DNA of 32,502 nt from the IMG/VR virus record IMGVR_UViG_3300025131_000233, positions 1 through 32,502 of that record. One strand, 5' to 3'. Positions within the stretch are counted from its first letter, which is position 1, and each line of letters opens with the position of its first letter. A program made the translations under genes and the position numbers. Shown piece after piece: positions 1 through 32,475 of this stretch. Source of the DNA: a virus. The notes below the pieces were generated by a model. It was not told where the DNA came from, did not search any database, and saw only the letters and a list, made by a program, of their open reading frames with translations.

Positions 1-225
1 AGCTTTTTTCTTATATCCTGCCATTTCCCACTCTTTAGTTTGAGTTGGTTGAATAAAGTGCCTCTTGTGACCATCCATATATTCCTTACTCTCCTCACTT
101 TTAGTACCAGTCACCTGTTGTTTAAAAAATGTCTTACGAAAGCCACACTCTTCACATTCTTCATGAGTACGACCTGCGTCATCATCAATTATATTAAAGT
201 TATGACCAATAATATCACATTTCAT
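1..225 (-). CDS. Small zinc-binding protein, 3' end outside window
   Basis: The frame opens at 225 in the context usual here (AATAGTATG) and stays open for 75 codons to the window's left edge, so the C-terminus is missing. The visible part starts MKCDIIGHNF and has Cys3, His8, then H-E-E-C-E-E-C near residues 25-31, a Cys/His layout like a small zinc finger or ribbon. The rest is charged and hydrophilic with no membrane segment. It is the last visible gene of a minus-strand run of tiny genes and follows the preceding stop after one base. No function is recognised; short zinc-binding proteins are common in phage early regions. Confidence 0.65.
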   Translation of the reverse strand, partial: MKCDIIGHNFNIIDDDAGRTHEECEECGFRKTFFKQQVTGTKSEESKEYMDGHKRHFIQPTQTKEWEMAGYKKKA

Positions 226-226
226 A

Positions 227-418
227 CTATTTTATTTTACTCCAAAAGTCTTTCTCTTCTGCAATTTTTACATCTTCAACAGATGGAGTTGTTAATAATT
301 CTGACTTATTTTGTGTCTTTTTAACCAATCTAACAGCCTTGTGTGACAATTTAAACTGAATTGCACCCATTACATAGCCTAGAAAAAACGATAAAACGAC
401 TAAAAATGCACCAAACAT
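227..418 (-). CDS. Small single-pass membrane protein
   Basis: 63 residues. Residues 1-22 (MFGAFLVVLSFFLGYVMGAI) form a hydrophobic segment, followed by a basic stretch (KLSHKAVRLVKK) and a charged tail. This suggests an N-terminal anchor with a cytoplasmic tail. The start has the local TAATATG pattern and follows the upstream stop by one base, so it is probably co-transcribed and translationally coupled. It could be a small early inner-membrane protein (superinfection exclusion or takeover), but nothing in the sequence proves that. Confidence 0.65.
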   Translation of the reverse strand: MFGAFLVVLSFFLGYVMGAIQFKLSHKAVRLVKKTQNKSELLTTPSVEDVKIAEEKDFWSKIK

Positions 419-419
419 A

Positions 420-584
420 TTATTTATCAGGAGTTATTATTTCAGATTCTTTCTTTTTATTAGGAACAACCACAATTTGATCCGGCTGAGGAACTGTAAC
501 CAACCCAACATCATATTCTTTACATAAAGTATCCAACTTCCCTTTGAATTCCTCGATTTTTTTAACAGTTTTCTCATCGTACAT
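420..584 (-). CDS. Small hypothetical protein (54 aa)
   Basis: Begins MYDEKTVKKIEEFKGK and ends in a lysine-rich tail followed by TAA. Its stop is followed by TATG of the next gene, the junction style seen throughout the window. The start context (AAATTTGTATG) has no SD. The N-terminal half looks helical (alternating Lys/Glu and hydrophobics) and the middle has a short beta-like stretch (VGLVTVPQP, QIVVVP). It overlaps out of frame with the 3' part of the 437-685 frame. The composition here is more natural in this frame, so this is the better candidate for the overlap. Function unknown. Confidence 0.55.
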   Translation of the reverse strand: MYDEKTVKKIEEFKGKLDTLCKEYDVGLVTVPQPDQIVVVPNKKKESEIITPDK

Positions 585-685
585 ACAAATTTATTTATTT
601 CTAATTGATTAAAATGCTCACACTCTCCCCTACATTCCCCATCGAACAACACCTCCCCACAAGTTGTACATATTATTATAAGCAT
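437..685 (-). CDS. Small Cys-rich protein, 3' part possibly frameshifted
   Basis: The first ~33 residues look genuine: MLIIICTTCGEV, then C-R-G-E-C-E-H, giving C-x2-C and C-x3-C-x-H zinc ligands. From about residue 34 the frame runs over the MYDEKT gene (start 584) and becomes a Leu/Trp/Lys-rich string typical of out-of-frame reading. A one-base change near 590-600 would bring an in-frame TAA (AATAAATAA occurs there), giving a ~32-residue zinc protein that ends just before the next gene. Either there is a real overlap, a recent indel, or a sequencing error. It is the first gene after the promoter at 904-932 and its long leader. Confidence 0.4.
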   Translation of the reverse strand: MLIIICTTCGEVLFDGECRGECEHFNQLEINKFVCTMRKLLKKSRNSKGSWILYVKNMMLGWLQFLSRIKLWLFLIKRKNLK

Positions 686-897
686 ATTTTATTAGTGACG
701 AGAAGATTTTTTGCCAATCATCAGCGTGAGGTTTTTAGTTCTCGTCAACGCCTTTTAGTAGAACCCCTTAGAAATTCTAGTAAATAAGCCTATAAATTTA
801 AACCTTCCCATCACTAATAAAATAAAAAAGACGTACTTAAAGAACGCCTTCACAATAACTTTTAAATTGATAATATAGATCCATACTCCTTGGTTAT
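686..897 (-). promoter_or_regulatory. Long structured leader upstream of the 437-685 gene
   Basis: About 210 bases without a convincing gene. On the minus strand it would be the 5' leader made from the promoter at 904-932. It contains a weak terminator-like hairpin early on (828-850) and a perfect 9-base inverted repeat, TGACGAGAA at 696-704 with TTCTCGTCA at 739-747, which ends about 11 bases before the start codon. A 15-codon frame beginning MDLYYQF follows an AAGGAG motif near 885, but the motif is too close to its ATG to be convincing. Confidence 0.4.
824..850 (-). terminator. Weak terminator-like hairpin (possible attenuator)
   Basis: On the minus strand AAGGCGT (850-844) can pair with ACGTCTT (834-828), including one G-T pair, around a 9-base loop. 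It is followed directly by a T-rich run (TTTTTATTTTATT). It sits about 50 bases downstream of the predicted transcript start and well upstream of the first gene, as an attenuator would. The stem is short, so confidence is low. Confidence 0.35.
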
Positions 898-903
898 ATT
901 ATA

Positions 904-932
904 ATTATACTAAAAAAAGAAAAGCTTGTCAA
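904..932 (-). promoter_or_regulatory. Consensus sigma-70 promoter
   Basis: Minus strand TTGACA (932-927), a 17-base spacer, then TATAAT (909-904): both hexamers are exact consensus. It should start a leftward transcript near 897. The -35 box lies inside the loop and stem of the terminator at 912-940, so the end of one unit and the start of the next share the same bases. Confidence 0.75.
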
Positions 933-940
933 GCTTTTCT
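912..940 (-). terminator. Intrinsic terminator of the 1609-962 unit
   Basis: A perfect 10-base stem (AGAAAAGCTT at 918-927 with AAGCTTTTCT at 931-940) has a 3-base loop. It is followed on the minus strand by seven T residues (918-912). It lies just downstream of the 962-1147 stop codon, the expected place to end the first minus-strand unit. Confidence 0.8.
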
Positions 941-961
941 CCTTAAATTACGCAGTTTTAG

Positions 962-1147
962 CTAAATTCTAACAGTACAATGATCACAAATGCTAATATA
1001 ATCACCATCATCATTCTCAACATCTTTCATTAGTTCAGTACATTCCCACTGCCCACAACATCTACATTTGACCTGATCACCACGAAGTTCAGCCATCAAA
1101 TCTTCTGCGAACAGTTTTTCAATTAACATATTTTTTAATTGTCCCAT
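962..1147 (-). CDS. Small zinc-ribbon protein
   Basis: 61 residues: a helical N-terminal half (MGQLKNMLIEKLFAEDLMAELR) and a C-terminal zinc module with C-R-C-C near residues 28-31 and C-D-H-C near 54-57. Two Cys clusters separated by an acidic loop fit a treble-clef or ribbon fold. The start is ATATATG, four bases after the upstream stop and with no SD; the terminator at 912-940 follows the stop. Possible roles are inhibition of a host protein or early regulation, but none is demonstrated. Confidence 0.7.
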   Translation of the reverse strand: MGQLKNMLIEKLFAEDLMAELRGDQVKCRCCGQWECTELMKDVENDDGDYISICDHCTVRI

Positions 1148-1151
1148 ATAT

Positions 1152-1316
1152 TTATTTGTTAAGAGTTATTTTTTCAATAACATAATTCTGTCCAGACTCA
1201 ACTTCATCACAATAATCACCATCATCCCACTTTTGATTAGCTTTTGTTAAGCTTTCAGCTTCAATGTCAACATAACCATCACCATCAAAGCTATAATGTA
1301 TTCTAAATTTTTTCAT
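1152..1316 (-). CDS. Small beta-rich acidic protein
   Basis: 54 residues, MKKFRIHYSFDGDGYVDIEAESLTK and onward. The alternating pattern and short length recall small phage proteins with a single alpha/beta domain (strand, acidic loop, helix from the ESLTKANQKW stretch, strand). I chose the start at 1316 because it has the usual TAAATATATG context right after the preceding stop. An upstream in-frame ATG at 1349 would overlap that gene. Function unknown. Confidence 0.65.
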   Translation of the reverse strand: MKKFRIHYSFDGDGYVDIEAESLTKANQKWDDGDYCDEVESGQNYVIEKITLNK

Positions 1317-1323
1317 ATATTTA

Positions 1324-1434
1324 TTAATCTTCATCACCATAATCGACATAATCTTCTAAACCGAGCTCTTGAGCTAACAAGATTTCATCTTCAGAAAGTT
1401 CCATATCGTATATAGTGGCTAAATAATTATTCAT
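1324..1434 (-). CDS. Very small acidic protein (36 aa)
   Basis: MNNYLATIYDMELSEDEILL and onward, ending in an acidic DYGDED tail. The start has the local TAATATG junction immediately after the preceding stop, and the stop is followed by ATATATG of the next gene, so it fits the chain of tiny genes exactly. It is strongly acidic and mostly helical. Acidic micro-proteins in early regions sometimes mimic DNA or bind RNA polymerase, but that is speculation here. Confidence 0.55.
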   Translation of the reverse strand: MNNYLATIYDMELSEDEILLAQELGLEDYVDYGDED

Positions 1435-1435
1435 A

Positions 1436-1609
1436 TTATTCCATTATCTCAGTTCCACTAAGTGGATAAATTACATATGAACCATCATCACTATTGCCAA
1501 CGACCTCTAAACCCTCAAATATCATATTCCACTCCTCATCACACGCAATATGAATCTTCTTATTGTCCGGCAACTGTTTTAAAATTGCCTTAAGTTGTTT
1601 TACCAACAT
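1436..1609 (-). CDS. Small hypothetical protein, first gene of the leftward unit
   Basis: 57 residues beginning MLVKQLKAILKQLPDNKKIH and ending with a beta-like VGNSDDGSYVIYPLSG segment. This layout (short helix, PDN turn, strands) resembles small phage proteins that start 'vkqLkeiLkqlPDd..v'. The start ATATATG has no SD; the TAA overlaps the TAATATG junction of the next gene. It is the first gene after the promoter at 1674-1702, with a leader of about 57 bases that shows no obvious structure. Function unknown. Confidence 0.6.
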   Translation of the reverse strand: MLVKQLKAILKQLPDNKKIHIACDEEWNMIFEGLEVVGNSDDGSYVIYPLSGTEIME

Positions 1610-1673
1610 ATATTTTCCCTTCTAGATCAATTATCCAGGTGCAGACAAATGACCCTTATTTAATTATATTTGT

Positions 1674-1702
1674 ATTGTAGCAGACTACAATAGGGTTGTC
1701 AA
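1674..1702 (-). promoter_or_regulatory. Sigma-70 promoter for the leftward unit
   Basis: Minus strand TTGACA (1702-1697), a 17-base spacer and TACAAT (1679-1674). It drives 1609 to 962. It lies 19 bases from one arm of the iteron repeat, so a protein bound there could control it. Confidence 0.75.
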
Positions 1703-1720
1703 GCAAGTTGTCCACAACAA

Positions 1721-1843
1721 TTAAAGATTTAAAGATTTAAAGATTTTCGGGGGGTACATATGTTTATTTTCCCTATAATAGGTTCAAAAACACGTAGTGT
1801 AGATATAGCCACCTGTGAAATCTTTAAATCTTTAAATCTTTAA
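1721..1843. repeat. 26-base inverted repeat of 8-base iterons: candidate origin/operator
   Basis: Three head-to-tail copies of TTAAAGAT plus TT occupy 1721-1746. The exact reverse complement (three copies of ATCTTTAA) occupies 1818-1843. The 71 bases between contain a G6 run at 1749-1754 and AT-rich DNA. The block sits in the only divergent intergenic region, between a promoter on each strand and just upstream of the replication gene. This is typical either of a replication origin with iterons or of paired operators. No initiator gene is identified. Confidence 0.65.
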
Positions 1844-1919
1844 TCACATAATTGCACTAAAATACACAATCATAATAGTAGGAATATATTGCACTCCACA
1901 GTTATACACACCCATTTGT

Positions 1920-1948
1920 TTGACCACATTTCTGAAAAATGGTATAAT
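1920..1948 (+). promoter_or_regulatory. Sigma-70 promoter of the rightward early operon
   Basis: TTGACC (1920-1925), a 17-base spacer and TATAAT (1943-1948) predict a start near 1955. It is the only good promoter seen upstream of the primase gene at 2093. Confidence 0.75.
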
Positions 1949-1954
1949 TCTATC

Positions 1955-2081
1955 AGATGCAAACTAATACCACATATGCGACAATATTATAATCAAAAAG
2001 CAGTAAAAGAGAGCGAAAGGGTGACCTTAGCAACATGGGTATGTGGTAATTCCCTTGTATCTTCTCTTTTACTGCTTTTTT
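1955..2081 (+). ncRNA. Structured leader/small RNA with terminator-like stem and possible pseudoknot
   Basis: A perfect 18-base stem pairs 1995-2012 with 2063-2080 and ends in six T residues (2076-2081), like an intrinsic terminator with a large loop. Inside it AAGGG (2017-2021) pairs with CCCTT (2052-2056). In addition TACCACATA (1968-1976), before the stem, is perfectly complementary to TATGTGGTA (2040-2048) inside the loop, which gives a crossing, pseudoknot-like topology. The primase gene starts 11 bases after the T-run and no other promoter fits between. The element therefore should attenuate that gene, or release a ~125-nt RNA with some readthrough. Confidence 0.6.
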
Positions 2082-2092
2082 AATATAAGCCT

Positions 2093-4492
2093 ATGGATCT
2101 AGAAAAACTTCCAAAATATGCACAGGACATACTTAACAAGTATTTGATCCCGTTAAGTTCAAACACACCACCAGAACTATTACTGGCAGTTCTTAATGTA
2201 TATTGTTCCAGAATTCTTCTACATAACAGAACAATGATACAACCATTAGATGAAGATCTATTGTATCCAAGTTTATATGTGATAATATTTGCTGAATCTG
2301 GAGTCGGAAAGAATAGAACTGTAAACTTTATAAAGAAGTGTTATGGAGAAGTTGAAGGATACCATATAGAAGAATATGAAAGGCTTAGAGAAGAGGTGGT
2401 AGAAAGATTATATATAAAAGCAGAGAAGTTAAGTCAAAAAGCGGTGGATGAAAACAGAAGGGACAAGCAGTGGAGTAAAACAGAAAAAAATGCATACGTA
2501 GAAAGATATATGCCTAGAACAGTAACAGAAGAGTTTAGCAATGGTACACCAGAGGGGCTTGTGGATATGAGATTAGCATTTTTTAATCTTAAAAAAGATA
2601 AAACCGGGATAGGTTCAGTTCATTTTGAGAATGATGAAATACTAGATTGGATTAAAACCTCTTCATCATCATCCCAAACAGATATAAAAGAACTATTAAA
2701 AGCAGTAGCAGAAGACGGAGATAATGGGACAAAACTTATCAAAGGAGAGAAAGAAATAGTCCCAGTTAAGAATGTACCACAAACACTACTTGCTTTCAGC
2801 TCAATAGCAAAACTATTGGAAAATGGTAAAGCTAACGCACAACTAGAAGAGTTTTTAGAAAGAGGGTTAGGAAGACGCTCAATGTTGTGTTACCCAGATG
2901 AAAAATACCAATCTAAAAAGAAAACATATAATGAACATAAAGAACAAAAAAAAGAAGCTAGAAAATATGTAGCAACACTAGAAGACATCTTTGAAAGACT
3001 ACATACATATACCATACGAGAATTAGTCCCGGATGAGGAAGAGAAATATAATAAAAAAATAGTAGCTACAAATGAGAAATTAGATAGACACATATTTGAT
3101 TATCAACAAGAGTGTTTTGAAAGATCGGCACAAATGAATGATGTAAATAGAGGAATATTTGGTGGAGTAATAAATGGTCACCCTCGCAAGTCATTAAGAT
3201 TGGCAGGAGTTATAACAACAGTAAAGGCTGTATTAGCACAAAAGAAAGAATTTATAATGACTATTGAAGACTATGAAGAAGCAAGATATCAGATAGAATT
3301 TTATTTTGATCAATACTTTAAGTTTTATAATAGAACTGGAACAACAGATGTTGAACATTTATACAACTACATAATTGAAAACCAGGGTAAGGATAGAATT
3401 CATAAAGGGGATGTTAGAAAACAAAAATTTGCTAGAAATAAAGGTAGTTATTTAACAAAGTGGTTGGATGAAGTATTTGATGGAGAATTAGAAGAATATT
3501 GTTACACAAAGAAAAAGGTTGTACTACCAATACTAGAAGGAAGCTCAAAATACCCTCATTATCGTATAGAAGACGTTGTAGAGGTAGAAAACAGTATAGA
3601 GGTATCAGATATCCCAAAAGCATTGTTTAGCACGTCAGATTCAACAAATGGTGAGCACCCGTTTGATGGGTTTGAGAAGAAAGAGGTAGCCTTTAAAGAT
3701 ATACCAGAAATGGTGCAAAAATCAGCTTATACCACTCATTGGTTTAAGAATAACCACAGATCAAAAGAGAACACACAATTCTATGGGAACTTGTTAATAA
3801 TAGATATAGATAATGATGGAGAGGAGAAATTATATATAGAACAAGCAAATGAAATGGTAAAAGATTATAGAGCAATAGTCATCCCATCACAAAATCATCA
3901 AAAAGAGAAGGGTGAACATGGAGTCCAGGATAGATACAGAATAATATTACTTTGTGATTCAGTTATTGAACCAGAGAATGATTATAAACACGTAATGAAT
4001 AAATGTATAGAGTCGCTTGGCTTAAAAGGGTATGAAGATACAAGCGTTACAACAGATAAATCACGTTATTTAAAAAGATCACCAAAAGGATGTAAATACA
4101 CACTACACGAAGGTAATAAATTATTTAGCTGGAAAGGATTTGATAAACCACAGAATATACCAAAAAAATATGTACCAACAAAAGAAGTTGAAGAAATAGG
4201 CAGTATTAGAGAAATACCACTATCATATTTAATGGAAGAAGTTGGTGCTAAATTCAATAAGAAAACTGGTAATAATCTTTTCTATTATTGTCCATTTCAT
4301 GGTGGATCTGGAACATCATTAAGAGTAAATGAAACAAAGAATTTATTCTTGTGCACTCAGTGTACACCTAACCCAGGATACGAAACACTTGGTGGAACTC
4401 CAGTAGACTTGATAATGAAATGGAAGGGTGTAGAATGTGGCAAGGCAATAAAAATGTTAAAAAATTACTTACTGACTAATTCATTAAAATAA
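2093..4492 (+). CDS. Replication protein: P-loop domain, archaeo-eukaryotic-type primase-polymerase, C-terminal CHC2 zinc finger
   Basis: 799 residues. Residues ~55-270 hold a P-loop-like segment (FAESGVGKNRT, Lys73), resembling the helicase-like DUF3987 proteins. The loop is degenerate: Ala replaces the first Gly and Asn follows the Lys. Residues ~545-680 match primase-polymerase (AEP) motifs: DID (571-573) after a hydrophobic strand, S-x2-H (599-602), the RYR strand (614-616) and D655-x-SR near the third acidic motif. Residues 730-790 form a DnaG-type CHC2 finger: CPFH (733-736) and CTQC (754-757), followed by GGTPVDLIM. It would prime and perhaps unwind phage DNA in the cytoplasm. It is first in the early operon and has no SD (start AAGCCTATG). 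Confidence 0.75.
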   Translation: MDLEKLPKYAQDILNKYLIPLSSNTPPELLLAVLNVYCSRILLHNRTMIQPLDEDLLYPSLYVIIFAESGVGKNRTVNFIKKCYGEVEGYHIEEYERLREEVVERLYIKAEKLSQKAVDENRRDKQWSKTEKNAYVERYMPRTVTEEFSNGTPEGLVDMRLAFFNLKKDKTGIGSVHFENDEILDWIKTSSSSSQTDIKELLKAVAEDGDNGTKLIKGEKEIVPVKNVPQTLLAFSSIAKLLENGKANAQLEEFLERGLGRRSMLCYPDEKYQSKKKTYNEHKEQKKEARKYVATLEDIFERLHTYTIRELVPDEEEKYNKKIVATNEKLDRHIFDYQQECFERSAQMNDVNRGIFGGVINGHPRKSLRLAGVITTVKAVLAQKKEFIMTIEDYEEARYQIEFYFDQYFKFYNRTGTTDVEHLYNYIIENQGKDRIHKGDVRKQKFARNKGSYLTKWLDEVFDGELEEYCYTKKKVVLPILEGSSKYPHYRIEDVVEVENSIEVSDIPKALFSTSDSTNGEHPFDGFEKKEVAFKDIPEMVQKSAYTTHWFKNNHRSKENTQFYGNLLIIDIDNDGEEKLYIEQANEMVKDYRAIVIPSQNHQKEKGEHGVQDRYRIILLCDSVIEPENDYKHVMNKCIESLGLKGYEDTSVTTDKSRYLKRSPKGCKYTLHEGNKLFSWKGFDKPQNIPKKYVPTKEVEEIGSIREIPLSYLMEEVGAKFNKKTGNNLFYYCPFHGGSGTSLRVNETKNLFLCTQCTPNPGYETLGGTPVDLIMKWKGVECGKAIKMLKNYLLTNSLK

Positions 4493-4497
4493 AATAT

Positions 4498-4776
4498 ATG
4501 GAAAAAATAAGAAAAATGTTTGGTGACTCATTAGTAGACGAATGGGGAGAGCAATTACTATGTCCAGTTTGTAGTGATTATTATACACATATTGAGAAAG
4601 TAGAGCATTACCCCGATCATGATGATTATTATTGTAAAAATATCCCATCTATTGACTGGGAGGGCAGAGGAGAGGCTGTGGTATTACATTTTTATTGCGA
4701 AAGCAACCACAAATGGGCGATAAGATTTGGTTTCCACAAAGGAAATATTTATGTAAAAAAGATAATAGAAAAATAA
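4498..4776 (+). CDS. Small zinc-ribbon protein
   Basis: 92 residues. C-P-V-C at 22-25 is followed by YYTHIEKVE, then a beta-rich C-terminal half with V-V-L-H-F-Y-C-E-S-N-H-K-W and FGFHKGNIYV. The layout (CPxC, TH, later FxCExxHxW, HKG) is one I associate with small phage and plasmid zinc-ribbon proteins of unknown role. The start TAAAATATATG lies five bases after the primase stop, so the genes are likely co-expressed. It may be a replication accessory or regulator; not established. Confidence 0.75.
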   Translation: MEKIRKMFGDSLVDEWGEQLLCPVCSDYYTHIEKVEHYPDHDDYYCKNIPSIDWEGRGEAVVLHFYCESNHKWAIRFGFHKGNIYVKKIIEK

Positions 4777-4777
4777 T

Positions 4778-5041
4778 ATGAAAAAAATACAACACTGGGG
4801 GCAAGTATGTATTAAATGCAAAGACAAAGGAGATAAAGGATTCTTATCATATTACAAGATAAAGTTCTTCCCGAACCCTCTATACGATGAAAGTGATAAA
4901 AGCACTAAAGGCAGGAATATGCCAAAGTACTCATTCCACTTATCAGAGTACTGCTTGAACTGTAATAGATACAAAAAACATAGATCGCAAAAATCAACAT
5001 TAATGGACTCATTAAAGGACTCAATCTTATCCACAGAATAG
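4778..5041 (+). CDS. Small basic zinc-binding protein
   Basis: 87 residues with C-I-K-C (11-14) and C-L-N-C (59-62) separated by a basic, aromatic segment. The distance between knuckles suits a zinc ribbon. The tail is basic and helical (RYKKHRSQK), which is compatible with nucleic-acid binding. It starts one base after the preceding stop (TAATATG). The next consensus promoter starts three bases after its stop, so it is probably the last gene of the first early unit. Confidence 0.7.
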   Translation: MKKIQHWGQVCIKCKDKGDKGFLSYYKIKFFPNPLYDESDKSTKGRNMPKYSFHLSEYCLNCNRYKKHRSQKSTLMDSLKDSILSTE

Positions 5042-5043
5042 AT

Positions 5044-5072
5044 TTGACCAGTGTATTGCTATGTGGTACAAT
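5044..5072 (+). promoter_or_regulatory. Consensus sigma-70 promoter of the structured RNA/SSB unit
   Basis: TTGACC (5044-5049), a 17-base spacer and TACAAT (5067-5072); start predicted near 5079. Same architecture and same -35 as the promoter at 1920. Confidence 0.75.
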
Positions 5073-5078
5073 AGTATC

Positions 5079-5348
5079 AGATATAGAGGTACACTTTGTC
5101 AGTAGGTTGACAATATATTGCCTCCTCTTATATATTGTTATCAGGTGTAACTAACTACCTACTGACAAAGCGTGACTCTATGTCACCGAACTCGCGTACT
5201 CGCCGGTGCGTAAGCGTAAAAATAAGCTATAACATCCATCACGGATCAAACTTGCAATCTTTGATTGGAGTGGATAACTCATTAGCTAAAGCGTTACAAA
5301 CCGGCGGTACGCAGGTTCAAAAATGCCTGTACATTAACAACTAAATAT
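5079..5348 (+). ncRNA. Highly structured ~270-nt leader or noncoding RNA
   Basis: Domain 1: a perfect 14-base stem (5094-5107 with 5157-5170) carries an 11-base stem (5108-5118 with 5130-5140, one G-U) and an 11-nt loop containing CCTCCTC (5121-5127). A 16-nt one-sided bulge lies at 5141-5156. Domain 2: GCGTAC (5194-5199) with GTACGC (5307-5312) and CGCCGGT (5201-5207) with ACCGGCG (5300-5306) make a 13-pair stem with one bulged T. Inside are AGCTA/TAGCT (5225-5229/5283-5287), ATCCA/TGGAT (5234-5238/5271-5275) and ATCAAA/TTTGAT (5245-5250/5260-5265). A small CAGG/CCTG hairpin follows (5312-5315/5326-5329). No T-run follows, so transcription should run into the gene at 5349. An overlapping 69-codon frame is not credible. 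Confidence 0.7.
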
Positions 5349-5861
5349 ATGTCAAAAGCAAATAAGGCAGAAGCCAATTCAAGCACAAACACAGATTCAA
5401 TTTTAGATAAAGGCAGTCGTGTCAAATTTGAATATCAAGGGTGGAAAACTATCGGTGACCACGTTATTGGATGCTATGTAGGGAAGTACAAAAATACTCC
5501 AAGCAAATATAATCCAAACAACATTGAGGTAGAAAATTATGTTCTACTCCAAGAACCAGATGGTGAAATAAAAGTAGTAGCTGGTAGGCAGCCAAAATCC
5601 AAAACAGATGGCACTAAAGTCTTCTGGGATATGGCAAAAATTCCTCTAGGTGCTCGTGTCGCTTTCATCTATGAAGAAGATAGAGAAAACGAAACTGCAA
5701 ATCCAACTAAGATAATCGCAATAGGATACGAGGGTCAGGTTGATAAAGAAAAATATCTAAACTTCAAAGCTAAATATAACTTATCAGAGTTAGTTGATGA
5801 AGATGAAGAAGCTCCAGAGGAAGAAGAAGTATTAGAACCAGAGGTTGTAGAAGAAATATAA
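5349..5861 (+). CDS. Candidate single-stranded DNA-binding protein
   Basis: 170 residues: a polar N-terminus (1-25), a beta-rich core (26-140, with aromatic and glycine positions such as VKFEYQGW, VIGCYVGKY, VFWDMAKIPLGARVAFIYEE), and a strongly acidic C-terminal tail (148-170, runs of E and D). A small beta core plus acidic tail, encoded beside primase and helicase, is the hallmark layout of phage SSBs (as in T7 gp2.5), where the tail recruits partners. The OB-fold itself cannot be proven by eye. The start AAATATATG has no SD; its expression is presumably governed by the long structured leader. Alternative: another tail-acidic replication accessory protein. Confidence 0.5.
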   Translation: MSKANKAEANSSTNTDSILDKGSRVKFEYQGWKTIGDHVIGCYVGKYKNTPSKYNPNNIEVENYVLLQEPDGEIKVVAGRQPKSKTDGTKVFWDMAKIPLGARVAFIYEEDRENETANPTKIIAIGYEGQVDKEKYLNFKAKYNLSELVDEDEEAPEEEEVLEPEVVEEI

Positions 5862-5865
5862 AATC

Positions 5866-5905
5866 TAAGCACTAATTTAAAACGTACAGGCATTTAAAGT
5901 GCTTA
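5866..5905 (+). other. Intercistronic hairpin
   Basis: TAAGCACT (5866-5873) is perfectly complementary to AGTGCTTA (5898-5905), with extra TTTAAA pairing possible in the 24-base loop. It begins four bases after the SSB-candidate stop and ends 12 bases before the next ATG. It is not followed by a T-run, so an mRNA-processing or stability element is more likely than a terminator. Confidence 0.5.
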
Positions 5906-5917
5906 ATAAATAAACAT

Positions 5918-6119: not shown

Positions 6120-6386
6120 ATGAAAATATTAGCAGAACAAACATTCCACCTTGGGAACAAAGATCAATGGGATAAAACCATAAAGTTTTCAAGATACGCA
6201 GCTAAAGTAGAATTACTAATTTTGGAACACAAAACAGACGGAGATGCACAACTAATAAGATTTAATGAAGAAGAAATAAAAGATCTAAAAAATATCCTAG
6301 AGAACACTAATTATATATTTAACCAAGATAAATATGGAGATAACAAAACAAATAGAGATAATTACCCAGGGTGTCAAGGAATGTAA
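6120..6386 (+). CDS. Small hypothetical protein
   Basis: 88 residues. Strand-like segments (MKILAEQTFHL, AAKVELLIL) come first, then an acidic helix (NEEEIKDLKNILENTN). The start CATATG lies four bases after the preceding stop. The last ~17 residues overlap out of frame with the next gene (start 6334), an unusually long overlap for this operon. The natural end of the fold may therefore be about residue 70. No family recognised. Confidence 0.6.
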   Translation: MKILAEQTFHLGNKDQWDKTIKFSRYAAKVELLILEHKTDGDAQLIRFNEEEIKDLKNILENTNYIFNQDKYGDNKTNRDNYPGCQGM

Positions 6387-6894
6387 GGAGATAAAAATAC
6401 CAACGATCAAATCAAACAAAGACTACAAAAGAGCATCTGACTCAGTGAAGTTTATAAATGATAAGCTAAAGTACGCTGAATCAGAACGTAAGAAAATGGT
6501 AGCACCGCTAGTAAAAGAAAAGAAAGAAATAGACTCAGCATTCAAACCATTAACAGTTCCAATGAAAAGTTTGATGACAAACATCAAAGGATCAATGCTG
6601 AACTATATGAAGAAGAAAGAACTAGAACAAGCCAAATATGAGCAGAAAAAGATAGAAGAAACTCCGGATGAACATACATTGGTAGTGGATGATAAGGTTA
6701 GAAAGATAAAAGACAGTGAGTTTAGTAGCAATACTAAAAAGACAATTATTAAGTATAAGATAAAGGACAAGCAACTAGAAAATGTAATTACAATTAAACA
6801 ACAACTGATGAAAGAATACTTGTTAGCAGGTAACCCATTGCCTGACTACATAGAAACCTACACTGAAGAATCAATAGTTGTAAGAACAAAATAA
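6334..6894 (+). CDS. Coiled-coil protein of replication/recombination type
   Basis: 186 residues. Residues 20-130 are rich in Lys/Glu with heptad-like hydrophobics (KRASDSVKFINDKLKYAESERKKMVAPL onwards, ELEQAKYEQKKIEE), i.e. a long coiled coil. A short beta/alpha C-terminal part follows, ending PDYIETYTEESIVVRTK. The layout resembles the small coiled-coil proteins (DUF1351-like) encoded beside phage recombination genes. The start AAATATGG lies within the previous gene. Its tail continues to within one base of the next small gene. Role inferred from context only. Confidence 0.6.
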   Translation: MEITKQIEIITQGVKECKEIKIPTIKSNKDYKRASDSVKFINDKLKYAESERKKMVAPLVKEKKEIDSAFKPLTVPMKSLMTNIKGSMLNYMKKKELEQAKYEQKKIEETPDEHTLVVDDKVRKIKDSEFSSNTKKTIIKYKIKDKQLENVITIKQQLMKEYLLAGNPLPDYIETYTEESIVVRTK

Positions 6895-6997: not shown

Positions 6998-7341
6998 AAT
7001 ATATACAACCAGGAGATTATCTTGTAAGACAATTAAAGAAAAGAAAACAAAGAGTAAGAGTTCTTGGTGTCCAGGATGAATTAATATTCGTAAGCAGATG
7101 TAATGATTTTGATAAATCAGGAGATGCACTAACACAAAAAGATATATTGACAGGAAAATGGAAGTGGATTATTAGCTTGAAAATGGATATGTTAAGAGTA
7201 AGAGCTAATAATGAAGGTAAAATAGAAGAAACACTTATGCCGACCGATGAAGATAAGAAGAAAAAATACTATGGTAAAAGACTTATGGAATTAGTAAAAC
7301 AATATAATGAACAAAATGATCCAAATAACTATAAACAATAA
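6979..7341 (+). CDS. Hypothetical protein with a small beta-barrel-like core
   Basis: 120 residues from the chosen start (MEQEKLKYIQPGDYLVRQ), which has the typical GATATATGG context. An upstream in-frame ATG at 6919 lies wholly inside the tiny membrane-protein gene and would add a low-complexity leader. Residues 8-75 alternate basic and hydrophobic residues with turns (PGDYLVRQLKKRKQRVRVLGVQ, ELIFVSRCN), resembling a KOW/SH3-like module. The C-terminal part is acidic, then helical. It overlaps the helicase start by 35 bases. A nucleic-acid-binding accessory is possible. Confidence 0.6.
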   Translation: MEQEKLKYIQPGDYLVRQLKKRKQRVRVLGVQDELIFVSRCNDFDKSGDALTQKDILTGKWKWIISLKMDMLRVRANNEGKIEETLMPTDEDKKKKYYGKRLMELVKQYNEQNDPNNYKQ

Positions 7342-8686
7342 AATATATATCAAGGGAATGAGTACGGATAGACAGAAGAATTTTAAGAAATTACTGACAC
7401 TTGATAACCCGGTATTTCATACAATGAAAGCTATGAAGAAATCGGTGTGGGGAATACAAAGATATTTTAAGTATTATAGTACATTAGGTAATGATTTAGT
7501 GATTCCACGTGGAATGTTGACTAGGTTGATGCATTTTCTGCATAGGTACGATGTAAAATACACACTAAATGATCAAAGAAATGTAAAGAAACTTGATACT
7601 GACTTACCGGAATTTAAACTACGAGATTATCAGCAGAAAATATGTGATAAGTTATTCCCGGAAGATGATGAACCACAAGAGGGGATGATAGTGATGACTA
7701 CCGGATCAGGCAAAACAGTAATGGCGGCTGAAATAGTACGTAGACTAGGACTCAAAGCCACGATACTAGTGTCAAAACAGACCTTGTTACACCAGTTTGC
7801 GAGTGAGTTTAAACGATTTGTGAACTATGATGTAGGTAAAATGTATAGCAAAGAAAAGACAATGAAAGATATAACAGTTGCAACCTGGGGAATACTAAGA
7901 AACAAAGAACGATTAGAAGAACTGATTCAGCAGACAAGCGTACTAATAATAGATGAAGCACAAGATGTAGCATCTCCAAAAAGAAAAGAGATAATACAAA
8001 GTTTCAATCCAAAGTATATGTATGGGCTGACAGCAACTCCATTAAGGACAGATGGGCAAACGCAAGGGATATTCTTCCTGGTAGGATCAGAAATAGAAGA
8101 TTATAAAGGTAAGCAGATGAAACCAAAAGTGGAGATCTGGCATACAAAAGAAGATATACCAGTTAGACCAGAATACCACGAAATGATAGATGAAATGATA
8201 GAGAATGATGGTCGTAATACCCTGATAACATACATAGCAATGGAAGAAATATCTAAAGGTCGTAAAGTATTAGTCTTAACAAAACGAATAGAACACTACG
8301 AAAAGATACATAAGAAACTCCCGGACAGTGATATGATATATGCAATGGACAGTAGTTCTCCGGATAGAGATTGGTTGTTGGGCGGTATGAAAAATGGGTT
8401 AGTAGATTTTAATTGTATACTCGGCACTACTGCATTACTAAGTTGCGGTGTAGATATCCCGAGCCTGGATACAGTAATAATTGCCTGTGATATGCGATCG
8501 CCAGTATTAACAATACAATCTGTAGGTCGTATAAGAAGATTATTTGAGGGCAAAGCTGAACCAAAAGTGATAGATTTACACGACTCAAGGAATTATAAGT
8601 TAAATAAACAAGCAAAGGAGAGGTTAAAATTATATAGAAAAAAAGAGTGGGAGATTAAAGAAATAAATATAGACTATGGTCACTAG
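7307..8686 (+). CDS. SF2 DNA/RNA helicase (UvsW/XPB-like)
   Basis: 459 residues with all main SF2 motifs in order: YQQ region at ~108-110, Walker A TTGSGKT (131-137), TLLHQF (159-164), DEAQ (216-219, the fourth residue Gln rather than His or Asp), TATP (242-245) and QSVGRIRR (404-411). Residues 1-100 form a small N-terminal domain beginning with a beta-like MIQITINNKIYIKG, as in phage UvsW-type helicases. The enzyme should use ATP to unwind or branch-migrate DNA at forks and recombination intermediates. The start at 7307 (or Met4) overlaps the previous gene. Its tail overlaps the next start by 11 bases, so the genes are tightly coupled. Confidence 0.88.
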   Translation: MNKMIQITINNKIYIKGMSTDRQKNFKKLLTLDNPVFHTMKAMKKSVWGIQRYFKYYSTLGNDLVIPRGMLTRLMHFLHRYDVKYTLNDQRNVKKLDTDLPEFKLRDYQQKICDKLFPEDDEPQEGMIVMTTGSGKTVMAAEIVRRLGLKATILVSKQTLLHQFASEFKRFVNYDVGKMYSKEKTMKDITVATWGILRNKERLEELIQQTSVLIIDEAQDVASPKRKEIIQSFNPKYMYGLTATPLRTDGQTQGIFFLVGSEIEDYKGKQMKPKVEIWHTKEDIPVRPEYHEMIDEMIENDGRNTLITYIAMEEISKGRKVLVLTKRIEHYEKIHKKLPDSDMIYAMDSSSPDRDWLLGGMKNGLVDFNCILGTTALLSCGVDIPSLDTVIIACDMRSPVLTIQSVGRIRRLFEGKAEPKVIDLHDSRNYKLNKQAKERLKLYRKKEWEIKEINIDYGH

Positions 8687-9349: not shown

Positions 9350-9609
9350 AAATAAATCCACCACCAATCAAACCAATATTTAAATCACACTGTTGTAAGG
9401 CAGGAGTAGATGTAGCAGGAGATGTTACAAAATATTATGTATGTAGTAATTGTTTACAACCTTGTGATGCTATTGCAAAGATGTCTTATTCAAACAACCC
9501 TAAACATTTTGAAAATAAACTTAAAAGAAATTCTAAAAAACCCTTTGATCAACACTGCAACTGCAGAGGATTGAGAAAGATGTGGTGTTGGCTAACTAGA
9601 GAAAGGTAA
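9346..9609 (+). CDS. Small zinc-ribbon protein
   Basis: 87 residues: a proline-rich start (MKINPPPIKP), then H-C-C (15-17), KAGVDVAGDVTKYYV, C-S-N-C (33-36) and Cys40: a classic short ribbon (HCC ... YxCxxC). The basic C-terminal half ends in C-N-C, WCWLTRER. ATGA overlap with the upstream gene. It is the last gene of the SD-less part of the operon before the SD-containing island at 9621. Function unknown. Confidence 0.7.
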   Translation: MKINPPPIKPIFKSHCCKAGVDVAGDVTKYYVCSNCLQPCDAIAKMSYSNNPKHFENKLKRNSKKPFDQHCNCRGLRKMWCWLTRER

Positions 9610-9620
9610 CCTCTTATAGG

Positions 9621-9645
9621 TGTATAGTTCATAGTAAACTATATA
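9621..9645 (+). other. Leader hairpin before the SD island
   Basis: TGTATAGTT (9621-9629) pairs with AACTATATA (9637-9645), nine pairs including one G-T, around the loop CATAGTA. It ends just before the SD at 9652-9658 and shows no T-run. It is probably a leader or spacer structure for the island. Confidence 0.45.
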
Positions 9646-9662
9646 CTATACAGGAGAGTACA

Positions 9663-9770
9663 ATGATTAGATTCATCGTTTGGCTCTGGAGTGTTTTCAA
9701 AGAAGTTGAACACGAAACCCCCGTTGTAGCAGATGAGTGCTATGACAATCACCCGGATAACTACGAATGA
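9663..9770 (+). CDS. Tiny protein (35 aa) with a true SD
   Basis: MIRFIVWLWSVFKEVEHETP and onward, ending NHPDNYE. Residues 1-12 are aromatic and hydrophobic (a short membrane-binding or amphipathic helix); the rest is acidic. A clear SD (AGGAGAG, 9652-9658) precedes the ATG, in contrast to the genes upstream. It ends in TGA, which overlaps the next ATG (ATGA at 9767-9770). Base composition is visibly richer in G and C than its neighbours. Function unknown. Confidence 0.6.
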   Translation: MIRFIVWLWSVFKEVEHETPVVADECYDNHPDNYE

Positions 9771-9916
9771 GAATATTCTGGTACACGATAGTCCAGAGGA
9801 CTTGTAAAACGTGTCGTGATTTTAAACTGCACGAGGTGGGGAGTTGTCCTAAAACAAATGAAACAATTTATGAATGCATTTGTTGCAGAACAAGGGTTGC
9901 AGTGAAAAGGAGCTGA
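9767..9916 (+). CDS. Tiny zinc-ribbon protein (49 aa)
   Basis: MRIFWYTIVQRTCKTC and onward: C-K-T-C (13-16), Cys27, then C-I-C-C (37-40) in a basic tail (RTRVAVKRS). The fold is likely a single zinc knuckle. Its start overlaps the preceding stop (ATGA), so translation is coupled. It ends in TGA inside the SD spacer of the next gene, whose AAGGAG lies at 9907-9912. Part of the SD-containing island; function unknown. Confidence 0.6.
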   Translation: MRIFWYTIVQRTCKTCRDFKLHEVGSCPKTNETIYECICCRTRVAVKRS

Positions 9917-9920
9917 CAAA

Positions 9921-10067
9921 ATGAAACAAGTAACGGAGTATTTCACACATTGTTATAAGTGTAATTGTATGGTGAAGTTCATCGTTTACATAGACTCATC
10001 AAGAGTCTTCCGGTTTGTGGTGGTGGAATGTACCAACTGTCACGATAAGGAAGAACATCAGGTGTAA
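9921..10067 (+). CDS. Tiny zinc-ribbon protein (48 aa)
   Basis: MKQVTEYFTHCYKCNC and onward: C-Y-K-C-N-C (11-16), a beta-like segment (MVKFIVYIDSSRVFRFVVVE) and C-T-N-C-H (37-41). This is the standard layout of a two-knuckle ribbon. AAGGAG at 9907-9912 is a canonical SD, eight bases before the ATG. One base after its TAA begins the pseudoknot at 10068-10111. It may be a paralogue-like partner of the other two zinc genes in this island. Confidence 0.65.
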   Translation: MKQVTEYFTHCYKCNCMVKFIVYIDSSRVFRFVVVECTNCHDKEEHQV

Positions 10068-10111
10068 TAGCAGCTTTCTTGTCCGTTTACTGCTAGAACA
10101 ACTAAACGGAC
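10068..10111 (+). promoter_or_regulatory. H-type RNA pseudoknot upstream of 10134
   Basis: Stem 1: TAGCAG (10068-10073) with CTGCTA (10090-10095). Stem 2: GTCCGTTTA (10081-10089) with TAAACGGAC (10103-10111). The loops are 7 nt (10074-10080) and 7 nt (10096-10102), with no base between the stems, so they can stack coaxially: the geometry of a real H-type pseudoknot. It ends 10 bases before the SD of the next gene, where it could control translation or bind a ligand. It does not match a riboswitch class I know. Confidence 0.6.
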
Positions 10112-10133
10112 TCCATTTTACAAAGGAGAGCGT

Positions 10134-10304
10134 ATGGCTAAAAACACCTTCGTGTATGAGGGGCAAGAGATGAAGTACTGCTTCTGCTGTAAAACCAAGA
10201 CTTGGTTTCAATTGTTTACAATCATCCGTGAGGATGAAAGTAAGCTTGGACAAGTCTGGCTCTGTTCCTGGTGTAACCGGGAACATAAAAGCCAAAACAA
10301 ATAG
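10134..10304 (+). CDS. Small zinc-ribbon protein (56 aa), last gene of the early operon
   Basis: MAKNTFVYEGQEMKYCFCC and onward: C-F-C-C (16-19), a beta segment (KTWFQLFTIIRE) and C-S-W-C (44-47), then a basic tail. A strong SD (AAAGGAG, 10122-10128) lies five bases before the ATG, just after the pseudoknot. Its TAG stop lies inside the terminator stem at 10300-10325. Function unknown; the layout resembles the other island ribbons. Confidence 0.65.
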   Translation: MAKNTFVYEGQEMKYCFCCKTKTWFQLFTIIREDESKLGQVWLCSWCNREHKSQNK

Positions 10305-10331
10305 CGACCTTGATTGGTCGCTATTCTTTTT
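10300..10331. terminator. Shared terminator between converging operons
   Basis: AATAGCGACC (10300-10309) pairs perfectly with GGTCGCTATT (10316-10325) around the loop TTGATT. It is followed on the plus strand by CTTTTT and on the minus strand by TTTGTTTT. It sits exactly where the plus-strand early operon meets the end of the minus-strand 10330-17142 gene. Confidence 0.85.
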
Positions 10332-13300: not shown

Positions 13301-16300
13301 CCAAGTTCTAACTGATTCTCTAAATACTCAAGACCATCTTCAAACCCGGCTTCTGATGCCAATGTATCTATTTCTATATCTTTACTAAAACCCTTTAATA
13401 AAAATTGATCAAGTTCTTTTGGTGTGGCAACTACATAGTTCACAATAACTTTTCCTTTCGGATGTTTTTTGCTCTGTTTACCCCTCAAAGCTTTAGACAT
13501 TAACCAACCTTTGCCCATATCATCTTTTATGGTTTTTTCTTTTCTATAATATGGATTGCTTTTTATTCCTTTCAATACCCCGGAGTTTATATCTTCTAAC
13601 CTGGATATGTTTGATTCTACAGTTACATTCGCCAATGCACCAATTTCACCACGAATCGCCTTCTTCTCTATATCTCTTATTCTTTTTCTTATTTTATAAA
13701 CTTGTTTTGGTGTCATTTGTTTACCAACTGCTTTCATTCCGAGTATTCCTAGTGCTGCTTTTTTTGAATTAATTGTTATATTCCCATCCTCATCTATTTC
13801 AAAACCTGCCATACCGCCATATAACTCACCAAACATCTTACCACTTGTTTTAATCTTTGGAGCTTCACCTCTTATCTTAGCTTTTACTTCTGGTGTTAGT
13901 TCAATTCCTTGTTGGGTTGTTTTCTCTACTGAGATGTCAAAGGTTTCAATAGCTTGTGAATTATTTTCTGACCATTCAAGAATATCTTTTGTAGAATATC
14001 CATCTCTTTCAAATGTCTTCATTTTAGGTACTGCCCTGAATTTACCATTTTCTAAAACCTCTATAACGATAAATTTGGTATCTGCTTCATTTACTAATTC
14101 TATCCCAACTTTTATGTTTTCAGGTGTAAGTAATTCATTATTATAAGCATTTATTTCCCATTTGGTTTTTTTACTAATAGGCAACCCCATATCCATCTTA
14201 ATAACATCAGCACCTGTTAAGTCTTTAACTATATTAGCTACTTGCCTATCATAAAGATTAGAAGCCCATTCTCCACCAAAGGATAATCCTTCTCCTGATA
14301 GAGTACCTTTTGGTTTCTCCATTATCTTATCTGCTAGTCCTTTACCTAATACTTCATCTAGTTTTTTACCTTCCCAACCACCTTGTATACTAGAGTTTAT
14401 TACCCCAGTTTTTGAGTCTACATTTACATCAATTTTATTACCACTCTTTTCTTTAAGTACAACCTCTTTGGCATCATATTTATTTGAAGTCCACTTTACA
14501 TCATCTAACTGTGTAGCTAAATCATATCTAGCACTTGTTTGTTTACCATTTATCCAAGCAAAGTATTCAGCATTAGTATCAACTGCTTCTTTTAATGCTC
14601 TTTTTGTAGACATCTCTTGCCATTTTTTTAGGAGAGGGTTGTTTGGGATACCTTCTTTTTTAATATCATCCAATGCTTTTGTAATCGCTGATTCTTTTGT
14701 ATCTCCAAAATAAACATACTCTCTGTTTGGTATTTCAATCTTCCATTCAGCCCCCTCTTTTGTGACACTTGAACCCTCTGGTAATTCTGTTAAGTTCTGC
14801 ATAAACCCTTTCTCTCTACCCTCTCTAGCCCAATCACTTTGTAGTTCTTCCATGAAAGATACTTTCTTACCTTTGTATGTTCTTTCGTTCATTCTAAGAT
14901 GAGAGATAACATTTGGTTCTTCCCAGTGAGAGGATTTGAAGTTGGTAGCATGTATTTCTTCTTGTCCTTTTACACTAAATAAACTTATACCTTTTTGTCT
15001 TTCTTCATAGGAAACCTTATCGTTCCAATTTTTACCATACTTTTTTGTCATCTCTTGAACATGTTTTGCGTATGGATTACTCGCTTTAACTTCTGGTGCT
15101 TTAATCAATATCTCTTTATAGTTCTTGCCATCAGGGAGTTGGTATTGGGAGTATTTAGTAGGACTTAATGCTTCCACATCATCTTCCAACATTGTTTCAT
15201 CTATGGAATAATAATCATTATTAGATCTTTCAATAAAGGCTTCTGCTTCTCCAACTGAATTAAATGTATCCACAACTTCATCAGTTTGAGTATCAAAAAC
15301 AGAAACATCTGGACTACCAACTGCATCACCATCTTTCATTATAGTTTCTTCTGTACCTTTCAATTCAGGTGCAAAGTCTTTGACTTCGCCACTTACTGCA
15401 TTACCTTTAATGTTTTGGAATTGGTTTTTATTTACTAAATAAGTTTCACCATCTTGTAATAAAATCTTACCATCTTTCATTTCGTATGGTGTTAGTGCTT
15501 CCCCCTTTGGTATAACCTCTTTATTTCCGTGAACATCTTTAGCTACTACATCTCTCTTTAGTTGTATGTTTGGATGCTTCTTCATTATATCATCAGCAGT
15601 CATTCCCTTAGTACCTCTTAATGTTTTTGCTAGATCTTTGTCTATATCAATACTTACTTTTGATACTCCTGTTTTCTCACTGACACCAAACAAAACAGAG
15701 ATGCTTTCATCACCATCTTTTATAGCTTGTGATATTCTATTATATCCATCAATAACTTCACCGCCAGATGAAACTATTGGATTCATCCCAAAAGGCTCAC
15801 CTTCAAAATCTCTAATTTCTCCAGACTTTAGATATTCATTAAGATCTGGATCACCTTTTCTTAAATCATTTATGCTAACCTTTTTTGTTATATAATTTTC
15901 TTTTGCAATTCTACCAATAGTAAAATCACTAAGACCGCCCTGATCGCTACCAAGTGTCTTTGCTTCTTTAGCTACTTCTTTCCCTGTATAAGTCTTTTTA
16001 ACTTTAGGACTAACAGCAGGTTTACTAGGTACTTCTCTGGTAGCTAACCCAAACTTAGGTTGTCTATAAGGTTGAAAAGGTTTGGTAGGGATAGTACCTG
16101 CTTTCTCTGGGAGCAATCCTTTCACACCCAAGAACGGTTCTTTCTCTGGATTCTTCATCCAGTTTTTAATATCACCATCAATAGCTTCCAAAACCTTTCT
16201 TTTAACTTTATCAGTCTTACTGACAGCTTCAATAAAACCATTGCGTTTGACTAGTTCTTTTTGTAAAATTCCATATTGAGTATTTAGTTTACTCATAGCT

Positions 16301-17154: not shown

Positions 17155-18891
17155 TTATTTACCAATTTTCCAAGCATCTAATGCTGCTTTCTGTGCATCT
17201 GAATATGTGGTTGATTTTTTATCATATAAAAAAGCATCAGCTTTCTTAGTGTCTTTTGGATCAATTCCAGCGTTCCTCAATTTCTTTAGTTCTGTATTAG
17301 TATATTTTAATTTTTCATCAGGAGCTTTTAATGATTTCTCTCTCTTTTTAAGTCCTGTTGATCCTCCTGTTTCTTGCCACCTGCTCCACTCTGCTTCAGC
17401 AGTTGAATCTCCTTTTTCTGCTGGGACACCAAAGCTATCATAAAACCAAGCTTTAAAAGAATCAGTAAAGTTTTTTGGTTTTGTAGTCTTATTACTAGGT
17501 GCTTTATATGTTAGTCCTTTGTCTATTTTATGAGTGATGATATCAGGATTTTTTGGGTTATAAAACGCTCTATATGTATGTCCATCAGGATCTTTTATAT
17601 CAGTGAAACTTAATTTAGTTTCAAGAGTTTTTCTAGTCTTTAATAAATTACGATAATCATTGTATACATTTCTAGCAGCTGCTTCTTTCTTTTCTCCTGC
17701 AGTGATTCTTGTTTTCATAGCTTCAATCACAGCAGCCTGATCTTCCTTATTAGCTTTCAAACTAACCTCAAGAGCTTTAACATTGCGTGTCACTTTAGTA
17801 AATAACTTACTTAGTGGTAATGCTTCAGCAGCACTAATTCTACCAAGTTGAGTAGCATTGACTACAAAGTCTTTTACACGATCACGCATTTCCTCTGGCA
17901 CATCTTCAATTTGTTCTTCCAAGTCATCAAGCTGTGTATTCCGTGCATCTATCCTAGACTGAATAGCTGAATTAGATTGTGTTTCAATCATTGTTGCCAA
18001 CTTTTTTCTTAAATCAGATTGACCATCTGCACTGCCCTTAAGTCTGTTATAGAAAGCATCTAGTAATGGATCACCACTACCGGTAGCCCCTGTGCTACCA
18101 CTTGTAGCCCCTGTAGCCCCGGCAGTTCCACTAGCACCAATAGCAGGTGAAGCAGAAGAAGCAGCTCTTTTGTCAGGCATGGTTGGCTGTATCCCCGGAA
18201 CTGACATACCCTGACCAGCAATAATCATATTCGGATCAGAGATCTGTGGGTTTATTTTCATTAGTTCTGCGACAGTTGTTCCGTGTTTTAAGGCTAAAGC
18301 TGACAATGTATCACCGCCCATTATAGTATATTGACCATTTTTTACAGTACCAGGAACAGCACCAGACTGTTGTGTTGTAGGTGTGTTATCAGGTATAGCC
18401 TTACCAGTAGCTCTATCTATTGTTTGACCACCTGCTGAAGTAAGCTTTGTCGGATCAAAGTTAGATGGATATTTCTTTTGTTGTTGTTGTGGGATATTGT
18501 TGATGTCAAACTTAAATGTTGCCTTCGAATCTCCAGTTGGCGAAATTTTCTTTTTAATAGAGGATTCAGATAAATTACTGGAAGCAAATTTTATAGCTGA
18601 TGTCAGCTGACTAAAACCGTGATGTCTTTCACCTCTTGCAAAACCGCCCATAATATTATTAATATCCTGTCTAGAGGTATTAAACTGGTCATTACCGCTA
18701 CCTTTTAAAATATCTGGTAATTTCTTTATATATTGAGGCAAAGAGGCTGAATCAACAAAAGACTCAAAATATTCTTTACCTTTACCGTAGGCATCTACAA
18801 AAGCACCTATCTTTTGATTGTGGTTCATTCTATTGAGGTTTATGCTTTTTTGTATAGATGACCTTTGTTCACTTGTTAATTGTTTAGGCAT
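17155..18891 (-). CDS. Virion-associated protein with LysM domain
   Basis: 578 residues. Residues ~187-233 are a clear LysM (YTIMGGDTLSALALKHGT, then INPQISDPNMIIAGQGMSVP), which binds peptidoglycan or chitin-like glycans. Before it lies a Gln/Ser/Thr-rich linker; after it a Gly-Ala-Thr stretch (252-273), then a long helical C-terminal half. No catalytic motif is evident. Its place beside the giant protein suggests an internal or tail-tip protein that engages the cell wall during DNA delivery. The start follows TAATATG. An endolysin is unlikely, as that gene lies elsewhere (24138). Confidence 0.7.
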   Translation of the reverse strand: MPKQLTSEQRSSIQKSINLNRMNHNQKIGAFVDAYGKGKEYFESFVDSASLPQYIKKLPDILKGSGNDQFNTSRQDINNIMGGFARGERHHGFSQLTSAIKFASSNLSESSIKKKISPTGDSKATFKFDINNIPQQQQKKYPSNFDPTKLTSAGGQTIDRATGKAIPDNTPTTQQSGAVPGTVKNGQYTIMGGDTLSALALKHGTTVAELMKINPQISDPNMIIAGQGMSVPGIQPTMPDKRAASSASPAIGASGTAGATGATSGSTGATGSGDPLLDAFYNRLKGSADGQSDLRKKLATMIETQSNSAIQSRIDARNTQLDDLEEQIEDVPEEMRDRVKDFVVNATQLGRISAAEALPLSKLFTKVTRNVKALEVSLKANKEDQAAVIEAMKTRITAGEKKEAAARNVYNDYRNLLKTRKTLETKLSFTDIKDPDGHTYRAFYNPKNPDIITHKIDKGLTYKAPSNKTTKPKNFTDSFKAWFYDSFGVPAEKGDSTAEAEWSRWQETGGSTGLKKREKSLKAPDEKLKYTNTELKKLRNAGIDPKDTKKADAFLYDKKSTTYSDAQKAALDAWKIGK

Positions 18892-32161: not shown

Positions 32162-32202
32162 AATTTTATATTATGTGATTTAAGGTTTGAAGTATTCAAC
32201 AG

Positions 32203-32448: not shown

Positions 32449-32475
32449 ATTCTTTTCCAGTTAACCGATCTTATC

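Follow-up and report, generated by a model that had tools for sequence, protein, structure and literature searches.

A structured, origin-related candidate mRNA leader downstream of a DnaA-box promoter in the early region of a phage

What function might a phage assign to about 240 nt of almost continuously self-complementary sequence, placed between an early promoter and the next gene on the same strand? Such a stretch could serve as part of the message, as an RNA of its own or as a site on the DNA, or it could be a by-product of rearrangement. An initial annotation, made from the sequence alone, regarded it as a promoter-driven RNA, either a regulatory leader or a processed species, preceding a candidate gene for a single-stranded DNA-binding protein (SSB). 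Here we describe the element, its unusual tie to the replication origin and the readings that it allows.

Genome context

The window, i.e. the whole stretch of DNA analysed, comprises 32,502 bp of an IMG/VR record and represents part of a phage genome. The genome appears to be circular and about 38.5 kb long, since contig L009, derived from a sister phage, bridges the window ends (31638-32502 and 1-1777, 96-100%) via 6.0 kb containing terminase, portal-like and capsid-like genes (portal and capsid judged by position and look only). Contigs L005-L008 and L010 are near-identical to the window and originate from several metagenomes; judging from the types of sample, we take the phage to be marine. 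In most of its genes (e.g. those at 2093, 4498, 5349, 5918 and 6120, and the late genes on the minus strand) the ATG start is preceded by A/T-rich sequence that contains no Shine-Dalgarno motif. A cassette of small Cys-rich ORFs at 9600-10330 carries strong Shine-Dalgarno sequences, unlike nearly all other genes of the window, and looks like a recent acquisition; it includes a terminator-like hairpin with a T-run (about 10305-10330) and ranks second in structure within the window. The leftward early region contains one further candidate structured region, a 25-nt inverted repeat (88%) with a 90-nt spacer at 685-824.

Table 1. Coordinates of the features discussed in the text.
Feature	Position	Strand	Remarks
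Probable main origin/divergent promoter region	1708-1957 (within 1690-1960)		source of paralogous modules
Primase	2093-4492		early region
DnaA box TTATCCACA	5027-5035	+	exact consensus; 8 bp upstream of the -35 of P5044
P5044, sigma-70-type promoter	5044-5072	+	TTGACC-17-TACAAT, extended TG
Domain 1	5080-5184	+	MFE -43.9, z -8.35; pair probabilities near 1
Third promoter-like copy, inside domain 1	5107-5144	+	TTGACA-18-TATATT-GT-TATCAG; 11/12 consensus matches
Domain 2	5188-5318	+	MFE -49.3, z -6.9
Origin-derived element, top of domain 2	5247-5283	+	iteron TTGCAATC and inverted DnaA-like box
Long-range helix, 5' strand AAATGCCTGTAC	5321-5332	+	12 exact complementary bases with 5884-5895
ORF, 170 aa, acidic tail	5349-5861	+	inside the long-range helix; no homologue found
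Long-range helix, 3' strand GTACAGGCATTT	5884-5895	+	in loop of hairpin 5866-5873/5898-5905
Exonuclease-like protein	6334-6894		early region
UvsW-type helicase	7307-8686		early region

Fold of the element

The stretch 5079-5348 has a minimum free energy (MFE) of -96.5 kcal/mol, compared with -55.7 +/- 4.4 for its shuffles (z -9.4; 0 of 200 shuffles equalled it), and ranks first among the 720 windows of that length on either strand. The earlier assertion that the fold exceeds chance is thus borne out. Two domains are formed (Table 1). The 28-nt arms of domain 1 (5080-5107/5157-5184) make 24 Watson-Crick and two U.G pairs and close an 11-bp hairpin (5108-5118/5130-5140, one G.U) with the loop UUGCCUCCUCU. 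Domain 2, as delineated by pair probabilities, has a long stem of 5+6+7 pairs, interrupted by one mismatch and one bulge, within which further stems are nested (5210-5217/5291-5297, 5225-5229/5283-5287, 5234-5239/5270-5275 and 5244-5250/5260-5266). The perfect 14-pair stem described initially (5094-5107/5157-5170), the 11-pair stem that it carries and the 13-pair stem with one bulge (5194-5199 + 5201-5207 / 5300-5306 + 5307-5312, enclosing nested stems) are all present, and both big stems reach beyond their original extent, to 5080/5184 and 5188/5318, respectively. The outermost pair of domain 1, 5080/5184, coincides with the predicted +1 of the P5044 transcript, where the helix stops. The region 5080-5318 is a real, strongly non-random structured element in a single phage, and it is probably transcribed.

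A DnaA-box promoter and its copies

The consensus promoter proposed upstream of the element was confirmed as P5044. A DnaA box precedes P1920, the early promoter before the primase operon, in the same arrangement (1902-1910), and the segment consisting of DnaA box, P5044 and TATCAGAT (from 5027 to 5081) aligns with ~1902-1958 over 57 columns with a score of 35. By sequence comparison, the P5044 module is a paralogue of the P1920 module. Of 104 sites that share this promoter pattern, only the two in the window have a DnaA box <=30 nt upstream, and none of the 99 stretches matched in a promoter-pattern search had a DnaA box upstream, the matches resembling unrelated promoters by inspection. A third promoter-like copy is embedded in domain 1 and constitutes the third and last occurrence in the window of a -10 followed by NN and TATCAG (0.62 expected). 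Neither the paralogy nor this third copy had been noticed before.

The P1920 leader (1956-2092) contains an 8-bp helix (1969-1976/2040-2047) that crosses an 18-bp helix (1995-2012/2063-2080), potentially a large pseudoknot immediately upstream of the primase start. The fold of this leader has a z of -4.3, with the pseudoknot excluded.

A helix around the downstream gene

A further feature absent from the initial annotation is a 12-bp helix between 5321-5332 and 5884-5895, the strands of which flank ORF 5349-5861, the second lying shortly after its stop codon. The chance of finding at least 12 exact complementary bases between random stretches of these lengths is 3.5e-4 (0.035%). The helix has P > 0.999 in the ensemble fold of 5080-5915, with a duplex energy of -19.5 kcal/mol, and in the fold of the 836-nt transcript it coexists with both domains (P > 0.99), leaving the start codon unpaired. 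Domain 2 follows domain 1 after 3 nt and is itself followed after 2 nt by the 12-bp helix; the predicted leader would therefore be paired almost without a break from +1 to 5332, 16 nt before the start codon. The about 16 unpaired A/U-rich bases in front of ORF 5349-5861 are to be expected, given that genes of this phage lack Shine-Dalgarno sequences.

The ORF 5349-5861 product had been called an SSB because of its position and its acidic tail. This assignment is unproven and finds no backing from profiles, PDB sequences or significant fold matches, and the single-sequence model of the product is of low confidence and beta-rich (pLDDT 49). The product should better be named the 170-aa early protein.

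Coding potential and searches for relatives

An open frame crosses the element, beginning with TTG 5135 or ATG 5180 and ending at the stop 5342-5344. Its codon score (-0.27/-0.21) is below that of every gene scored (-0.09 to 0.64 among the genes listed) and matches that of its own shuffles (z -0.3 for -0.27). A protein-coding explanation was rejected because the codon statistics are those of shuffled DNA, in line with the original view that no protein frame accounts for the region.

That view also held that no named RNA matches the element and suggested an Rfam search. Rfam 15, including GOLLD, ROOL, riboswitches, introns and tmRNA, gave 0 matches at gathering score in the window, the best sub-threshold matches being at chance level, and ARAGORN detected neither tRNA nor tmRNA in the window. 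An intrinsic terminator is absent from the plus strand here, as had been claimed. The hallmarks of a riboswitch or attenuator leader were not seen: the terminator is missing and the start region is unpaired in the ensemble fold; with a free ribosome-binding site and no terminator there is no classical switch platform, which makes riboswitch readings less likely. Nor was a reverse transcriptase, expected next to a retron msr-msd, present among the neighbouring proteins scanned. Of the original proposal, a promoter-driven, highly structured leader that codes for no protein, lacks a terminator and matches no named family is supported; the SSB downstream is not.

Scans of viral contigs, GTDB genomes, and phage or plasmid records revealed no homologue of the RNA. 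A DNA-pattern search with domain 2 gave no match, and covariance models of domains 1 and 2 had 0 matches in about 1 Mb of sequence from structurally related phages. The ORF 5349, primase and helicase peptides had no relatives in IMG/VR; the sole match to a helicase-motif sub-query (40%) was in a 141-kb phage. Searches of GTDB genomes with ORF 5349 and a primase alignment found none, and neither the ORF 5349 product nor the primase had a homologue in the records of structural-protein relatives.

Relationship to the replication origin

The region 1690-1960 contains inverted iterons (1720-1746/1818-1844), an AT-rich spacer, a G6/C-run, DnaA boxes at 1708 and 1902, and the divergent promoters P1702(-) and P1920(+). 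From the inverted iterons, together with the DnaA boxes and the divergent pair of promoters, we consider this region, as well as positions 1-200 of L009, a probable replication origin. The apex of domain 2 resembles an iteron/DnaA-box arm of such an origin, a likeness that had gone unnoticed. Its DnaA-like box, TTATCCACT, lies on the minus strand at 5269-5277, and the whole segment 5247-5283 matches the origin arm of the sister phage (L009, 107-143) at 35/37 positions (94.6% over 37 nt; score 66, null maximum 30). L009 was the only match in a DNA-pattern search with the origin element. To the phage's own origin (1702-1729, minus strand) the similarity is 21/28, the next best in the window being 18 (score 36, null maximum 35). 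The iterons of the two phages are of different types, AAAGATTT in the window phage and TTGCAATC in L009, within flanks that are 96% alike. The match of the domain 2 apex, together with this difference in iteron type amid similar flanks, suggests that the leader and an origin most likely exchanged sequence.

RNA leader or DNA element?

Stabilising 5' stem-loops and hairpins processed by RNase III are familiar from the early R sites of T7, the lambda N leader and the ompA leader, and a duplex of the length of domain 1 suffices for RNase III. The element resembles these in having a long near-perfect hairpin near the 5' end or between operon genes, before a translated gene, and it shows the characteristics of this kind of structure, a kind rather than a homologous family: a stem from +1 and a duplex of at least about 20 bp. 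We tentatively favour, at somewhat less than even confidence, a cis-acting structured leader providing 5'-end protection, RNase III-type processing and a closed mRNA module. The region would then form the 5' untranslated part of an mRNA of the early/middle class, transcribed from the DnaA-box promoter P5044 in the replication operon. The paired 5' end would withhold a landing site from 5'-end-dependent decay enzymes; the ~26-pair helix of domain 1 may act as an RNase III-type duplex, cut in read-through transcripts from P1920, and such a cut could part the read-through RNA from the downstream message; the long-range helix would shut ORF 5349-5861 into a protected module. The sequence elements, fold statistics, paralogous promoters and origin-derived element are observed, and from these we infer the existence of the transcript and its function in protection or processing. 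The window RNA departs from the known stabilisers in being much larger and two-domain, with a long-range helix around an ORF and an origin-derived segment, and its processing is predicted.

The leader reading gains from the top-ranked, non-coding fold and from the presence of a structured leader on the other rightward early transcript, that from P1920. It loses from the failure to find a homologue, from the origin-type repeats and the promoter inside domain 1, which mRNA protection does not need, and from the strong fold scores likewise obtained for the inverted iterons of the origin, which are not RNA genes.

Less probable, and the most serious of the alternatives, is a DNA-level second origin or control region, in which the hairpins would act as cruciforms or in single-stranded DNA, for instance as initiation or protein-binding sites. 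Folding alone does not establish RNA function, because the minus strand (z -8.05) and single-stranded DNA (z -7.6) fold nearly as well, and the origin-derived pieces, i.e. the iteron arm 5247-5283 with the DnaA boxes 5027 and 5269(-), favour a role of the DNA, as do the promoter paralogues P5044 and P5107. Yet the iteron is single, with no inverted array like that at 1720-1844. The stem terminates exactly at the transcription start, and the helices are 3 and 2 nt apart with the start codon free, both of which modestly favour a plus-strand RNA; so, weakly, does the excess of U.G/G.U pairs on the plus strand over A.C (about 7 to 2) in the two big stems. Considering the DnaA boxes, the two promoter-like copies and the origin-derived iteron arm, the region counts, in part at least, as a control region besides being a transcribed leader.

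It is unlikely that domains 1 and 2 are released as a processed RNA working in trans via exposed loops. For the top of domain 2, the partner could be the complementary strand of an origin, the phage's own or that of L009-type rivals, and the 35/37 matches to the origin arm of the sister phage speak for this; complementarity to the phage's own origin is 21/28 only. The domain 1 loop, through its CCUCC, could bind the Shine-Dalgarno sequences of other mRNAs, sparing the phage's own genes; the loop sequence and the early genes without Shine-Dalgarno sequences would fit, but no terminator or second promoter boundary delimits a separate RNA.

More doubtful still, the region could be a remnant of inverted duplications or recombination among control regions, functionless as RNA or DNA structure. 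It is visibly a patchwork of copied promoter and origin modules, and inverted repeats by themselves yield high fold scores; if unused, however, the near-perfect long stems, the G.U-compatible changes and the separate 12-bp helix would decay fast. There is only a slight chance that the leader is a replication regulator made from the phage's own control DNA, in which a DnaA-box promoter would drive a stable RNA with an origin-arm apex and a base closing the replication-protein mRNA; hybridisation of the apex to its own origin, or better to that of L009-type rivals, would then set or block initiation. Equally improbable is an antiterminator like put of phage HK022, i.e. a nascent two-domain RNA that, once bound to RNA polymerase, would take the enzyme through the operon: two stem domains directly follow an early promoter, much as putL sits right behind PL, and the early region has no terminator on the plus strand, but put is about 70 nt long, with two stem-loops and two similar copies behind PL and PR (PMC9378689), whereas the window RNA has about 240 nt and the P1920 and P5044 leaders have only the promoter and first bases (TATCAGAT) in common.

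Should the cis-acting leader be real, it would far exceed known 5' stabilisers in size, physically close the message of a replication-operon gene and be tied by sequence to the replication origin, and the DnaA status of the host, the type of origin and the expression of replication proteins would become linked. The element, with its tie to the origin and the long-range closure of the next gene, is interesting, if unproven; it is a single, well-documented candidate, and it also makes a clean target for experiments in this phage, the early genes of which have no Shine-Dalgarno sequence.

Other structured phage RNAs and hairpins in related phages

GOLLD and ROOL are likewise sizeable structured non-coding phage RNAs without known function, often located near tRNA islands, GOLLD often exceeding 800 nt (PMC12286853). 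The window RNA differs from them in being smaller (about 240 nt), in having no Rfam match and no tRNA in the window, and in consisting of simple nested hairpins rather than multi-pseudoknot folds. IsrK RNA of Gifsy-1 offers a parallel in that one phage region may be both an mRNA leader and a small RNA (PMC4825925); it has no known sequence relation to the window RNA.

When relatives were searched for long hairpins in tandem, one strong parallel emerged, at 17790-18090 (+) of L095, a structurally related phage of 41 kb. This 300-nt tandem double hairpin lies between integrase and AAA-ATPase genes, has stems longer than 20 bp (-145.8 kcal/mol, z -8.5) and is similar in layout to the window RNA; it had no sequence similarity to the latter and no match in Rfam or phage records. 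In other related phages, single hairpins of very high stability, 100-250 nt long, lie between genes: in L101 (13500-13850, -), L093 (18050-18400, -), L108 (5870-6180, -), L126 (13850-14100, +) and L118 (13900-14200, -). They may represent RNAs, sites on the DNA or terminators. L095 also encodes, near its terminase gene, a peptide deformylase (14531-14953, minus strand; Pfam PF01327, E 6e-27).
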